This document shows, one piece after another, positions 6,846-34,292 of a stretch of DNA of 34,292 nucleotides; position 1 is the stretch's first letter, and each line of letters opens with the position of its first letter. A program made the translations under genes and the position numbers. The stretch comes from an uncultured Rickettsiales bacterium. Lineage in GTDB: Bacteria; Pseudomonadota; Alphaproteobacteria; Rickettsiales; Rickettsiaceae. The notes beneath the pieces were generated by a model. That model saw only the letters and a list, made by a program, of their open reading frames with translations, had not been told where the DNA came from and did not search any database. The stretch is taken from the NCBI GenBank assembly GCA_903828265.1, contig CAIKLL010000030.1, forward strand, positions 1 through 34,292, read 5' to 3'.

Positions 6846-9368
6846 TTAATAAGAGCCTTTAATTCTATAAGGTGCAGATATAATTCCTCCGTGCTTTTTG
6901 TCGCCAGTAAAAATTTTTCCTATAACCGGCACATAGCCAACAAGTGAGCTTAAACCATAAAGAGAAGGTGTAACTTGCCCTGAAAGATCCGTAGTTCTCT
7001 TGGACGTATCTACATCTCCCTGCATAGTAAAACTAAAAAAAGGCCCTACTGCTTGGCTATGGGATATATGTAAAATTCCTTTTTGAAAGTTGAATTCGCC
7101 TTTCATATTAGAAAATATTATATCCTTGTTACCGCTAATCATGTTAACAAAGCCAGGAACAGAAACAACAGATACAAGTTTGGTAAGAGAAGGAGCATTA
7201 TATAGAACAAAACGCTCAAATTCAAATTTTCCATCTATAATAGGAATTACCTCGCCAGCAGCTATTTCTTTCCTACTAGCTGTTAAAAGCAAAAACATAC
7301 TTCCTGCCCTCATATCTTCATAAGCTCCAATCCCTTTAAGTAAAGCCCCGGCATTGTCCGATTTTACTAACCATTTTTCTAAATTACCTTCTTGGGTAAG
7401 GTTCATTTCAACTTTTTTAGAACCGATTTTTGCATCAATTTGACCCTGGTAACATTTTATGTAAGTGCATTTAAAATTTAATTTTAAATCATTAAGTAAA
7501 ATATCGTTTTTTAATTTTACTTTATCTACGGCAAGTTGCATTTTAGTGGTGCCTGCATCCCTTTCTTTTTCAAGAAATTGGAACATATCAGCTCTAGATA
7601 AATCAAGGGTTTTACCTTTAATAATTATATCAAAATCCCCTTTACTGATTATTATACTTGAAGAAAGTTCGGTTTGCCGATGATTAATTTTATCCAATAT
7701 CATTTTAGTAGTGGCCTCATTAATATCTATCAAGCCGGTGATATTAAGATTATTATCTCCATCAACCTTAAAGTTAATTTTTCCTTTTGTAGTGGACTCT
7801 AAAAGCCCATTTAAAATAAAATTCGATTTCTCCCCTTGTTTCTTGTGAATCCCTAATTTATCAAAATATAGGTCTAAATTCTTTAAATCAGAATTAACAG
7901 TAATTCTCCCTTCATCATTTATATTAATATATTCAAAATTTAACTTTGAATTACCGCCAAGTAATTTTACGAAACCAATTTTTTGAGGTTTTTTGCTAGA
8001 TTTACTAAATTGCAGCTTAGTTATTATGTTTAATTTATGATGAAATTCTGTCTCATCTTCAAAATTTTGAATAAACTCTATTTCAGAATCAAAACCGTTG
8101 ATTTTGCCTGCACCTGTTATTTGAAGTCTATCACTGCTATATTTACCGAAAATATTTCCTTTATTAAGGATAATTTTATTGTCAAAAATAGACAACTCCG
8201 TATTTGGCATTTTCGCAGTTATATCATAAGTGTCTTTAGAACCCGGTTTTAGAGGGATTTCTATTTTTATATCAATATCTGCTTTTCCGGAAAATTTTGT
8301 CAAATCAATAGCAGCCTGCTGCAGCATTTTATGAATGTGGGCTGTAATAAAATCCCTTAGAGCGCTAGTAGGACCTTGAGCTTTTGCAGTAATCAATAAT
8401 TTAGTATTTTCCTGGCCTTGCCAAGCCATATGTATCAAGCCATTAGTAATTTCAATACCAGTCGAATTTGCTTTATTGATAATAAAGTCTGTAACCATCC
8501 CTTTTTGCAAAACATCAATTTGCATATTAGTTAAAGGAGGTAATTCATTATTGTAAACAAACTTTAGATCCTTTACTTTAACAAAACCTTTTATATTTTC
8601 TCCGTTATAATTATTGTTCTTAATGTCTTCTTCTGCCACATTAACACTAAATTCACCAGATTCAAGTATCCCTTCTTTGATAAATTCATTCAAGAAAATC
8701 AATAAGTCATTCTTCGGGTATAAGTAATAAATAGGTTTATAAATAGTTATAGGTAAATTTTTTACATTTCCTATAAAATTAATATTATTATTAACCTCAC
8801 CGTGCAGGTCAAAAGCTACCTCCTCCTTAAAATTTACGTTGATATCATATTGAGATTGTTTATTTGATAACGAGTATGCTATTTGGGCTTTTCCATTCTG
8901 CAGTTCTATTGTATTAGCAACGTTAGCAGGCGCATTTCTATAAAAAATATCGTCTATGGATAACCAAAGGTTAGATTTACTTTTTATAAAATAGTTTTCA
9001 TAAGAAATCTTTACTTCACTAGTTGAAATCTGCTGATTCTCAGGAGCAGCAACACTTGCCTTATCTATCTGAACAACGGCAGAAAATCTGGATTCTTTAT
9101 AATTTAGATCAAAATTATAATTAATTATGATATTATTTAAGGTAAATTCGATACCATTTCTTGATATGACAATCGAATCTATCCGTGCCTGATTGCCTTC
9201 AAAAGCTAGATAACCGATTTCAGGATCAATTTTCTTTAACTGAAAATAATATTGTAAGGCATAATTAATGGGCGTATTTAATTTTCCTGCCTTTAATCCG
9301 TAAATAGCTAGACTTACGACCACAATAAAAACCATGGTTAAAATAATTAGTGTGCGTAAGGCTTTCAT
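6846..9368 (-). CDS. AsmA-like / DUF3971-type large envelope protein
   Basis: 840 aa; single N-terminal transmembrane segment; C-terminal segment with ..GEFNFQKGILHISHSQAVGPFFSFTMQGDVDTSKRTTDLSGQVTPSLYGLSSLVGYVPVIGKIF typical of the AsmA-like superfamily. Confidence 0.75.
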   Translation of the reverse strand: MKALRTLIILTMVFIVVVSLAIYGLKAGKLNTPINYALQYYFQLKKIDPEIGYLAFEGNQARIDSIVISRNGIEFTLNNIIINYNFDLNYKESRFSAVVQIDKASVAAPENQQISTSEVKISYENYFIKSKSNLWLSIDDIFYRNAPANVANTIELQNGKAQIAYSLSNKQSQYDINVNFKEEVAFDLHGEVNNNINFIGNVKNLPITIYKPIYYLYPKNDLLIFLNEFIKEGILESGEFSVNVAEEDIKNNNYNGENIKGFVKVKDLKFVYNNELPPLTNMQIDVLQKGMVTDFIINKANSTGIEITNGLIHMAWQGQENTKLLITAKAQGPTSALRDFITAHIHKMLQQAAIDLTKFSGKADIDIKIEIPLKPGSKDTYDITAKMPNTELSIFDNKIILNKGNIFGKYSSDRLQITGAGKINGFDSEIEFIQNFEDETEFHHKLNIITKLQFSKSSKKPQKIGFVKLLGGNSKLNFEYININDEGRITVNSDLKNLDLYFDKLGIHKKQGEKSNFILNGLLESTTKGKINFKVDGDNNLNITGLIDINEATTKMILDKINHRQTELSSSIIISKGDFDIIIKGKTLDLSRADMFQFLEKERDAGTTKMQLAVDKVKLKNDILLNDLKLNFKCTYIKCYQGQIDAKIGSKKVEMNLTQEGNLEKWLVKSDNAGALLKGIGAYEDMRAGSMFLLLTASRKEIAAGEVIPIIDGKFEFERFVLYNAPSLTKLVSVVSVPGFVNMISGNKDIIFSNMKGEFNFQKGILHISHSQAVGPFFSFTMQGDVDTSKRTTDLSGQVTPSLYGLSSLVGYVPVIGKIFTGDKKHGGIISAPYRIKGSY

Positions 9369-31482: not shown

Positions 31483-32913
31483 CTAATATTTGTTATAAAT
31501 TTGTAAAACGTATAGCCTTTTAACACAAATATAAACAAACATCAACCCACCAATAATCGCAATTAATCCACCTCCTCCCAGCATCCCCATATAAAACTTG
31601 GCCGCCAAGGCTATTTCTCCGTCAGGATTTTTTCGCAATATTCCATATCCCCCTGCTAGAGCAAGACCAGCTATATGTAATAATTGTCCGAAAGTAATAA
31701 TAACAAGCTGAATATTAGGCCACTTAGAATAGCTGAAAAGACTATTACCGCCAACAATTGACTGTTTTGGGGAATGGGAAAAGGTGAATAACTTTCTGCT
31801 CAGAGTTTGAGCAGGTATTGTAACCGAGTCATGGAAACAGAATATATAGGCAAATCCCAGAAAAGCAATGCTAATACCAACTATTGACCCATGGTAATGA
31901 GCAGGTATCGATAAATTTATTCCGGAAATTAAAACACCAATTAAACCACCGGCAAAAAATACCAATACTGAGGCCATAAAGGCTATAGCAACAAAGGATA
32001 GATGATTTTTGATTCTAGTAAATTTAAAAATATCGATAATTAACACTGCCATTAATAATGTGGGTGCGATTCCTCCGCAATATTGCATATGTTTAGTAAA
32101 AAATGCCGTAAATTCATATTCAGGCATTTGATAGACTAAATGGCCATAAAAAACAAATAAACTTAGGATAAAGTTAATTATGAAAAGAGCGCAATAGGCT
32201 TTATAATAAGCTAGGTTTTTTCCTATCCAAAGTTCGGATAAGACCAGCCACACAAACATTACAATTTGTGTATATATAAACTGCAAAAGATGACCACCAC
32301 TCCAAAATAACAATTCATAATAATAATCAATTTCCATTGGAAAAATATTGGAGAGAGCCATAACTTCCTTATAAGATAAGGTAAAACATCCCCATACCGT
32401 AATGTACATTAGGGATGAGGTCAATTTTACTATAGGTAAAACTTGCGCTGTAAATTTTTCCTCTGTCGCAACAAGATCGTGAAAACTGTTTACAAGAACT
32501 AATATTGAAAAATATAAGATAGCAGAACCGAACAAGCTAAGACCAATTATAAATAAAACATTCTCAAGTATAGGTACATAATTATTCATTATTGGGGTAC
32601 TCTGGCCTATTACCGGGCTAATAGCCATTAGGACTATCCCGAATAAAGCTAATTTATTAAGAATATTGCCAAAATATAACCTCTTGCTTCCATACGACCA
32701 GATTACACAGGTAATTGAAAGTAACCAAGCTAATACCGATAAATTTACATGGATTATCAAAGAAGATTTAAATATGGATTTATCGCTAATCATTTGAGAT
32801 AGTTGTGGCGTTCTTAAAATAACCAACACTATTGAATAGAGACCGGCAAGGGCTAGTGCCCATATACCGTTTTTAAGCCAGGAAATTGCCAGTTTATTTT
32901 CTGCTTCAATCAT
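31483..32913 (-). CDS. heme-copper oxidase subunit I-like membrane protein (cbb3/NorB-like superfamily)
   Basis: About 12 transmembrane segments; IHVNLSVLAW (helix II), WSGGHLLQF (helix VI), FYGHLVYQ (helix VII), PAHYHGS (helix X). Start at 32913 (MIEAENKL) is preferred over 32955 because it overlaps the comEC stop by only 8 nt. Confidence 0.7.
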   Translation of the reverse strand: MIEAENKLAISWLKNGIWALALAGLYSIVLVILRTPQLSQMISDKSIFKSSLIIHVNLSVLAWLLSITCVIWSYGSKRLYFGNILNKLALFGIVLMAISPVIGQSTPIMNNYVPILENVLFIIGLSLFGSAILYFSILVLVNSFHDLVATEEKFTAQVLPIVKLTSSLMYITVWGCFTLSYKEVMALSNIFPMEIDYYYELLFWSGGHLLQFIYTQIVMFVWLVLSELWIGKNLAYYKAYCALFIINFILSLFVFYGHLVYQMPEYEFTAFFTKHMQYCGGIAPTLLMAVLIIDIFKFTRIKNHLSFVAIAFMASVLVFFAGGLIGVLISGINLSIPAHYHGSIVGISIAFLGFAYIFCFHDSVTIPAQTLSRKLFTFSHSPKQSIVGGNSLFSYSKWPNIQLVIITFGQLLHIAGLALAGGYGILRKNPDGEIALAAKFYMGMLGGGGLIAIIGGLMFVYICVKRLYVLQIYNKY

Positions 32914-34187
32914 TTTCCTTAATTTTCCAAATAGGTTTTTGCCCAAATTTTGCATAGCAATTATTTTGTGAGCAAAAAATTAATACTATTCCGAATTTAA
33001 CCAAATCGCTATAATTTACTACTAATCCGTTGGTGTTACAAGCTAGTTTCGATGATATCATAATCTGTACCTTAGCATCAGAGCAGTTGTTATAATTTAG
33101 AGATAGAGTAGACTTTTCACCGTTAACAGCCGATTCAAATAGTTGATCTCGTAGTTCAGTTTCAAAATATTGGCTTTTTTTTGTACCATACCACCCTAAC
33201 CAATATTCTTTTGTAAAGTTAGATATCCTAAATTTCGAATATATATCTATAACATCTTTATTCTTTACACCAATTGCTTTAATTCTATGATCATAGATAA
33301 AATCAGGTTTTGGTGATAAATACATCATAACTAAGGATATAAGAATAATCATAAAACCAAAATAGCGCCATGTAGTTTGCCAGAGGCAAACCCAAAAGAA
33401 GCCGAAAGTAAATATTAGCATACTAGAATCAGTTATATATCCGGTATCTATTGTCGATATCGGTAAGTTAACTATATACTCAGCACTAGTAGTAATGATT
33501 TTAACAAAAAAGCCGAGTAGTTTCAGGCTATAATCGCTTGCATTAAAAGGCATCATTACCAAGGAAATAATAGCTAGGGGCATCATAAAAAATGACATAA
33601 GTGGTACCGCTAGCAAATTCATCAATAGGGAATATGTAGCAAATTTATAAAAATGATAGATCACAAAAGGTGCCGTAACAATGCTTCCTAAAAAACTAGA
33701 GTAAAGGTTGCCAAAAACATAAAGTTTTATAGAAGCAAAAATTCCTTTGCTTCTTCCAATTAATTTCTGATTACGGAGATAAATTTCATACCCGGAAATT
33801 AAACATAATACTGCTGAAAATGACAGCTGAAAACTTGGGTGCATGACATATTCCGGAGAAAATAACAAGATACACGCCCCCGCTATCATTACTGAACGAA
33901 GAGGATATGTAGACCTCTCTATGATAATTGCAAGAATGACAAAAAATGTCATTATAAAGGCTCTGGTAGCAGCTATATTTGTCCCACTAAGTAGCAAATA
34001 ACCGAAACTTCCTATAATTGAAATAATACCTGCAGCAACCTTTATGTTTATTTTATATGATAAATAATCTGAACAATTTAACAAAAATCTACTGCTGATA
34101 AAAAAAACTATCGCTACTAACGATAGGTGTAATCCTGAAACACTTAAGATATGAGGTAGAGTAGGCTGCCAACGAGTTGCTTCTACT
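32906..34187 (-). CDS. comEC: ComEC/Rec2 competence protein, 3' coding exon (partial; N-terminus missing)
   Basis: LPHILSVSGLHLSLVAIVFF, LLLSGTNIAATRAFIMTFFVILAIIIER, PLRSVMIAGACILLFSPEYVMHPSFQLSFSAVL. The apparent ATG at 34213 lies within intron domain VI, so the exon is inferred to begin near 34187. Confidence 0.85.
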
Positions 34188-34292
34188 ATTGAGTAGAAGT
34201 ACTTTTCCAACAACCCCTCTCCGAACTACGCATGACCGTTTCCGTATCACGTAGCTCTCCAGTAATCCATTAAGCTGAAAGTTTTCTTCCAT
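34188..34292 (-). mobile_element. group II intron, 3' end (domains V and VI); continues beyond the window
   Basis: Minus strand domain V GAGCTACGTGATACGGAAACGGTCATGCGTAGTTC (34257-34223): 9-bp lower stem, 2-nt bulge, 5-bp upper stem with one bulged A, GAAA tetraloop, AGC triad. Then domain VI ending CTACTCAAT with a candidate branch-point A. Confidence 0.85.

Follow-up and report, generated by a model that had tools for sequence, protein, structure and literature searches.

In bacteria, group II introns tend to stay out of conserved chromosomal genes. They are seldom found in housekeeping genes, and Ll.LtrB of Lactococcus lactis, whose RNP reportedly retargets the ligated exons, reduces how strongly its host gene is expressed (PMC6003770). 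Certain CL and ML introns nonetheless do occupy housekeeping genes (PMC4424553). Among described systems, Ll.LtrB resembles the intron reported here in its GTGCG 5' end, its AY 3' end, its sense orientation within a protein-coding gene and, as related introns suggest, its open reading frame (ORF) for a protein with reverse transcriptase (RT), maturase and HNH domains, a likeness that leaves EBS/IBS pairing aside. Its protein LtrA (PDB 5g2x) is also the best solved match to the RT ORF of a related intron, L046 (E 1.3e-92). The two differ in their hosts: Ll.LtrB interrupts a conjugative relaxase gene, whereas here the interrupted gene is comEC, encoding a chromosomal DNA-uptake channel, in a Rickettsiaceae symbiont.

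Multicopy group II introns encoding RT and HNH domains are also known from obligate intracellular Rickettsiales, such as those carrying the RAGE-associated RTs of Orientia (PMC10732058) and the introns of Wolbachia. The Orientia introns are mostly degraded and associated with RAGE elements (PMC10732058), whereas the comEC intron is clean, in sense and placed in a conserved chromosomal gene. Interruption of comEC by mobile elements has precedents as well, in the pneumococcal mefA cassette (PMC4774983) and in the transposable elements that break the comEC of Piscirickettsia salmonis (PMC12955456). Those insertions disrupt the gene, in contrast to a sense group II intron, which is removable from the mRNA. 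A literature search combining group II introns and comEC returned no natural intron in comEC as judged by title and abstract, which is not proof of absence; by the same measure, the top papers concerned Chlamydia genetics and intron-based mutagenesis. The element is thus of a known type, its host gene a less usual one, and no claim of a first report is made. The insertion offers a natural test of whether such an intron, in an intracellular symbiont, splices well enough for a conserved gene to remain functional; its value as a test rests on the clean sense insertion, on the empty site matched exactly in close relatives and on a target-like sequence that predates the intron.

A contig ends inside a group II intron

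The analyzed window is an entire contig of 34,292 bases (C30) from a draft genome whose 216 contigs total 1.66 Mb. Its host is a Megaira-like, intracellular member of Rickettsiaceae, the nearest named relative being Candidatus Megaira of Mesostigma viride (CP084576, locus L025). The contig terminates within the intron (Table 1). RF00029 (group II intron), the sole Rfam family over threshold in the window, matched minus-strand positions 34156-34259 across the full model (1-77) with a score of 48.1 bits, the gathering score being 40 (E 1.2e-6 on the entire window and 4.6e-8 on its end alone). This match bears out the domain V, with its AGC triad, that the initial annotation had recognized from the letters, and the predicted structure folds as described there. 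Domain V (-13.5 kcal/mol, z -3.2) and domain VI (-23.7 kcal/mol, z -3.3) each outfolded all but one of 200 dinucleotide shuffles.

The initial annotation had ended domain VI at 34188 and placed the splice junction at 34187/34188. A genome search with the end of the window as query placed it 32 nt away. Six contig ends are identical through ..CCTACTCTAC and then differ; the shared terminus reads ..GGCAGCCTACTCTAC up to 34156 and diverges from 34155 onward, so the 3' splice site lies at 34156/34155. Consequently, the peptide VEATRWQPT, previously read as ComEC sequence, is translated domain VI and belongs to the intron. The usual branch point of a group II intron is a bulged A in the 3' strand of domain VI, 7-8 nt from an AY 3' end. 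Here the intron ends in the AY-type ..CTCTAC, and the lone unpaired A of that strand, 34162, is seven bases from the end. The TTG start chosen by the ORF caller does fall within domain VI, as had been noticed earlier. Automatic calling therefore needs caution at such loci: here its output is a pair of spurious comEC fragments, and one of these begins within the intron.

Table 1. Coordinates of the comEC intron, its exons and the other sense copies (positions refer to the window unless a contig is named)
Feature	Location	Strand	Basis or remark
Intron 3'-terminal 137 nt (end of domain IV, domains V and VI)	34156..34292	-	RF00029; six identical contig ends
GRKLSA-stop, last codons of the predicted intron-encoded RT-maturase-HNH protein	34270..34290	-	matches C-termini of related introns
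Domain V, AGC triad at 34256-34254	34223..34257	-	RF00029 and fold
Domain VI, predicted branch-point A 34162, 3' splice site 34156/34155 (..CTCTAC/CTCATATC)	34156..34221	-	fold and shared copies
Spurious TTG start of called 435-aa ORF, in domain VI	34211..34213	-	ORF list
comEC 3' exon, from the second base of codon 270 to the stop (685-codon gene)	32906..34155	-	PF03772, E 1.9e-46
5' intron end GTGCGCC	C193:16925		GUGYG type; present in six copies
PF13567 (DUF4131, N-terminal ComEC domain)	C193:16249-16728		profile search of genome
Sense copy in comEC	C193/C30
Sense copy in nucleotidyltransferase-like gene	C73/C31
Sense copy in hypothetical gene	C155/C116		one uninterrupted homologue spans it
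Sense copy in Tlc transporter gene	C165		3' part only found
Sense copy in an ORF, presumably TraA-like	C137

comEC is split between two contigs at an exact site

The comEC 5' exon and the GUGYG-like intron start, both expected beyond the contig edge, were found on another contig of the same genome. C193 carries codons 1-269 of comEC and the first base of codon 270, directly followed by GTGCGCC; the ORF runs on into the intron and stops a few codons later, for a total of 273 aa. From GTGCGCC onward, six contig ends agree perfectly over 104-138 bases. Together with the six identical 3' ends, this puts the copy number of the intron at six or more, the assembled parts of these copies being their first 104-138 nt and last 58-140 nt. 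For C165, a seventh copy or a deletion may be involved.

The frame of the window exon is open from 34155. Joining C193 to that base gave an unbroken 685-aa ComEC with the DUF4131 and Competence domains in a single ORF, colinear with the uninterrupted 674-aa ComEC of L025. The intron separates the first base of codon 270 from the second, within the stretch MRNSGT(A)HILSVSGLH. The link between the two contigs comes from synteny and the identity of the gene, not from reads: the alignment of C193 to L025 runs up to GTGCGCC and stops at L025 base 7998, and that of the window takes up from 34155 at base 7999, with 88-89% identity over flanks of 4.9 and 9.3 kb and 90% protein identity for exon 2. Within the genus, comEC is uninterrupted in G020 and G021, and G022 (77% complete) holds a partial comEC; on contigs of six more distant relatives the reading frame continues uninterrupted across the site. 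The source genome's only comEC matches are the two split halves. With both exons and both intron ends present in one genome, the interruption of comEC by a group II intron, as first proposed, is supported.

The comEC site resembled the intron target beforehand

Four of the six copies have 5' flanks ending in GAAATAGCGGAACT(G/A). At the corresponding position, the uninterrupted comEC of G020 and G021 reads GAAATAGCGGAATTG. The 15-mer pattern GAAATAGCGGAAYTR occurs once in each of these two genomes, both times in comEC, with an expectation from base composition of 0.014 in 1.45 Mb. This single occurrence argues that the site resembled the intron target before insertion; judging by these flanks, a target-like comEC site pre-exists, nearly unchanged, in the relatives. 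The interrupted comEC carries C rather than T at position -3, encoding Thr where relatives carry Ile or Val, and this C is common to all six copies. A change from T to C for better IBS1-EBS1 pairing is plausible, conversion or chance being the alternatives, with EBS1 itself unseen. We also considered that the intron might target comEC preferentially, as a strategy against competence, and dropped this idea as unneeded: the sequence of the site is by itself enough to resemble the usual target.

Two other copies share a longer 5' flank. Before the intron, C192:15743-15795 and C136:11792-11844 (L048, L051) have 53 identical nt, save for the final exon base (G/A), and further upstream they are unrelated. 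The pattern looks as though the intron had carried exon sequence along, or as though the same gene remnant lay at both sites.

The intron-encoded protein and mobility

The initial annotation had anticipated an intron-encoded RT/maturase. Its last residues are in the window and partial RT-maturase-HNH ORFs are present in related introns, but the full ORF is unassembled. GRKLSA-stop, which the initial annotation had missed, matches the ORF C-termini of the related introns L045 (YDGKKLSA) and L044 (YYGRRLSA). The L045 ORF contains Intron_maturas2 and AI2M-like_HNH domains and that of L046 contains RT and maturase domains. This correspondence argues for a mobile, LtrA-like (ML) intron, a class assigned from the C-terminal residues and the related introns. 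An RVT_1 search of the source genome for the intron interior returned only other RTs, a search of that genome with the L045 protein (which had no positive control) found nothing, and a scan of viral contigs gave no match to the intron. The protein probably escaped assembly because identical repeats break short-read assemblies. In all copies the ends, domain V, domain VI and the branch A are intact and identical, which points to recent mobility.

Related introns of the family are frequently broken; the L044 intron, for example, is broken by an IS transposase.

Splicing and the state of comEC

We conclude that the comEC intron is a recent insertion of the retrohoming type in sense orientation. 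The reading that we favor, at a probability of roughly 80%, is that a mobile LtrA-like intron arrived in this way and is spliced out to give the 685-aa ComEC. Arrival would have proceeded by reverse splicing and target-primed reverse transcription into the target-like comEC sequence. In the comEC pre-mRNA, the intron would fold with its maturase, the branch A would attack the 5' splice site, and the exons would be ligated as GGAACTG/CTCATATC. An unspliced transcript would give only the truncated N-terminal product of 273 aa. On the sequence, ComEC production would depend on splicing.

All five intron copies located in ORFs are in sense (Table 1), an outcome expected by chance once in 32 and hence lending slight weight to splicing. 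Another of the interrupted genes encodes a Tlc nucleotide transporter (C165:7536-8160; L057, L087) and is cut by the same intron; the 3' part alone (profile 304-491) is in the assembly, and G020 and G021 hold five or six full-length Tlc genes. The joined comEC has a dN/dS of 0.16 against L025 (exon 1, 0.21; exon 2, 0.12), a low value that mostly records selection preceding the recent insertion.

Alternatively, the insertion is present but this copy, or the whole family, is splicing-dead, and comEC is a pseudogene being lost, like that of Piscirickettsia salmonis. Such loss is documented for comEC in intracellular bacteria (PMC12955456; PMC6299819) and related introns are often broken; moreover, DI-DIV and nearly all of the intron ORF are absent from the bin, so that the comEC copy may carry an internal defect. 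We nevertheless regard this as unlikely, given that the ends, domains V and VI and the branch A are intact and identical among copies, that both comEC exons are open and free of lesions, and that the copies in ORFs are uniformly in sense.

To return to the spliced intron, we propose that splicing efficiency sets the ComEC level, since unspliced RNA would yield the truncated product alone. That this efficiency, or RNP retargeting of the ligated exons, actually lowers or gates ComEC seems decidedly improbable; if it did, the intron would be a reversible brake on DNA uptake that shields resident mobile elements while comEC is kept undestroyed. Finally, an assembly or binning artefact, with comEC halves and intron ends from different genomes or repeat tails wrongly joined, might be suspected from the placement of every copy at a contig end with the repeat interior missing, yet it is extremely unlikely because the flanks meet at adjacent bases of an uninterrupted relative, the boundary coincides with canonical intron termini on both sides and the source genome holds these two comEC halves only.

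Other group II introns in the genome and its relatives

Sequences resembling half a domain V, as judged by eye, flank related introns at L046:1577-1604, at L047:1845-1864 and in the L045 3' flank beyond 5252 (minus strand). These flanks, which would belong to the domain V of another group II intron, occur with the related introns of three other Rickettsiaceae genomes, and suggest that the L045-L047 introns form twintrons with domain V as the homing site. The source genome itself contains at least one further multicopy group II intron family, recognized by a 113-nt domain V-VI match on five contigs of this genome (G000; C80, C81, C121, C137 and C27; L002-L006). Two other RT-bearing introns are present on C56 (L001) and C75 (L007), and many contig breaks in the genome fall at group II intron repeats.
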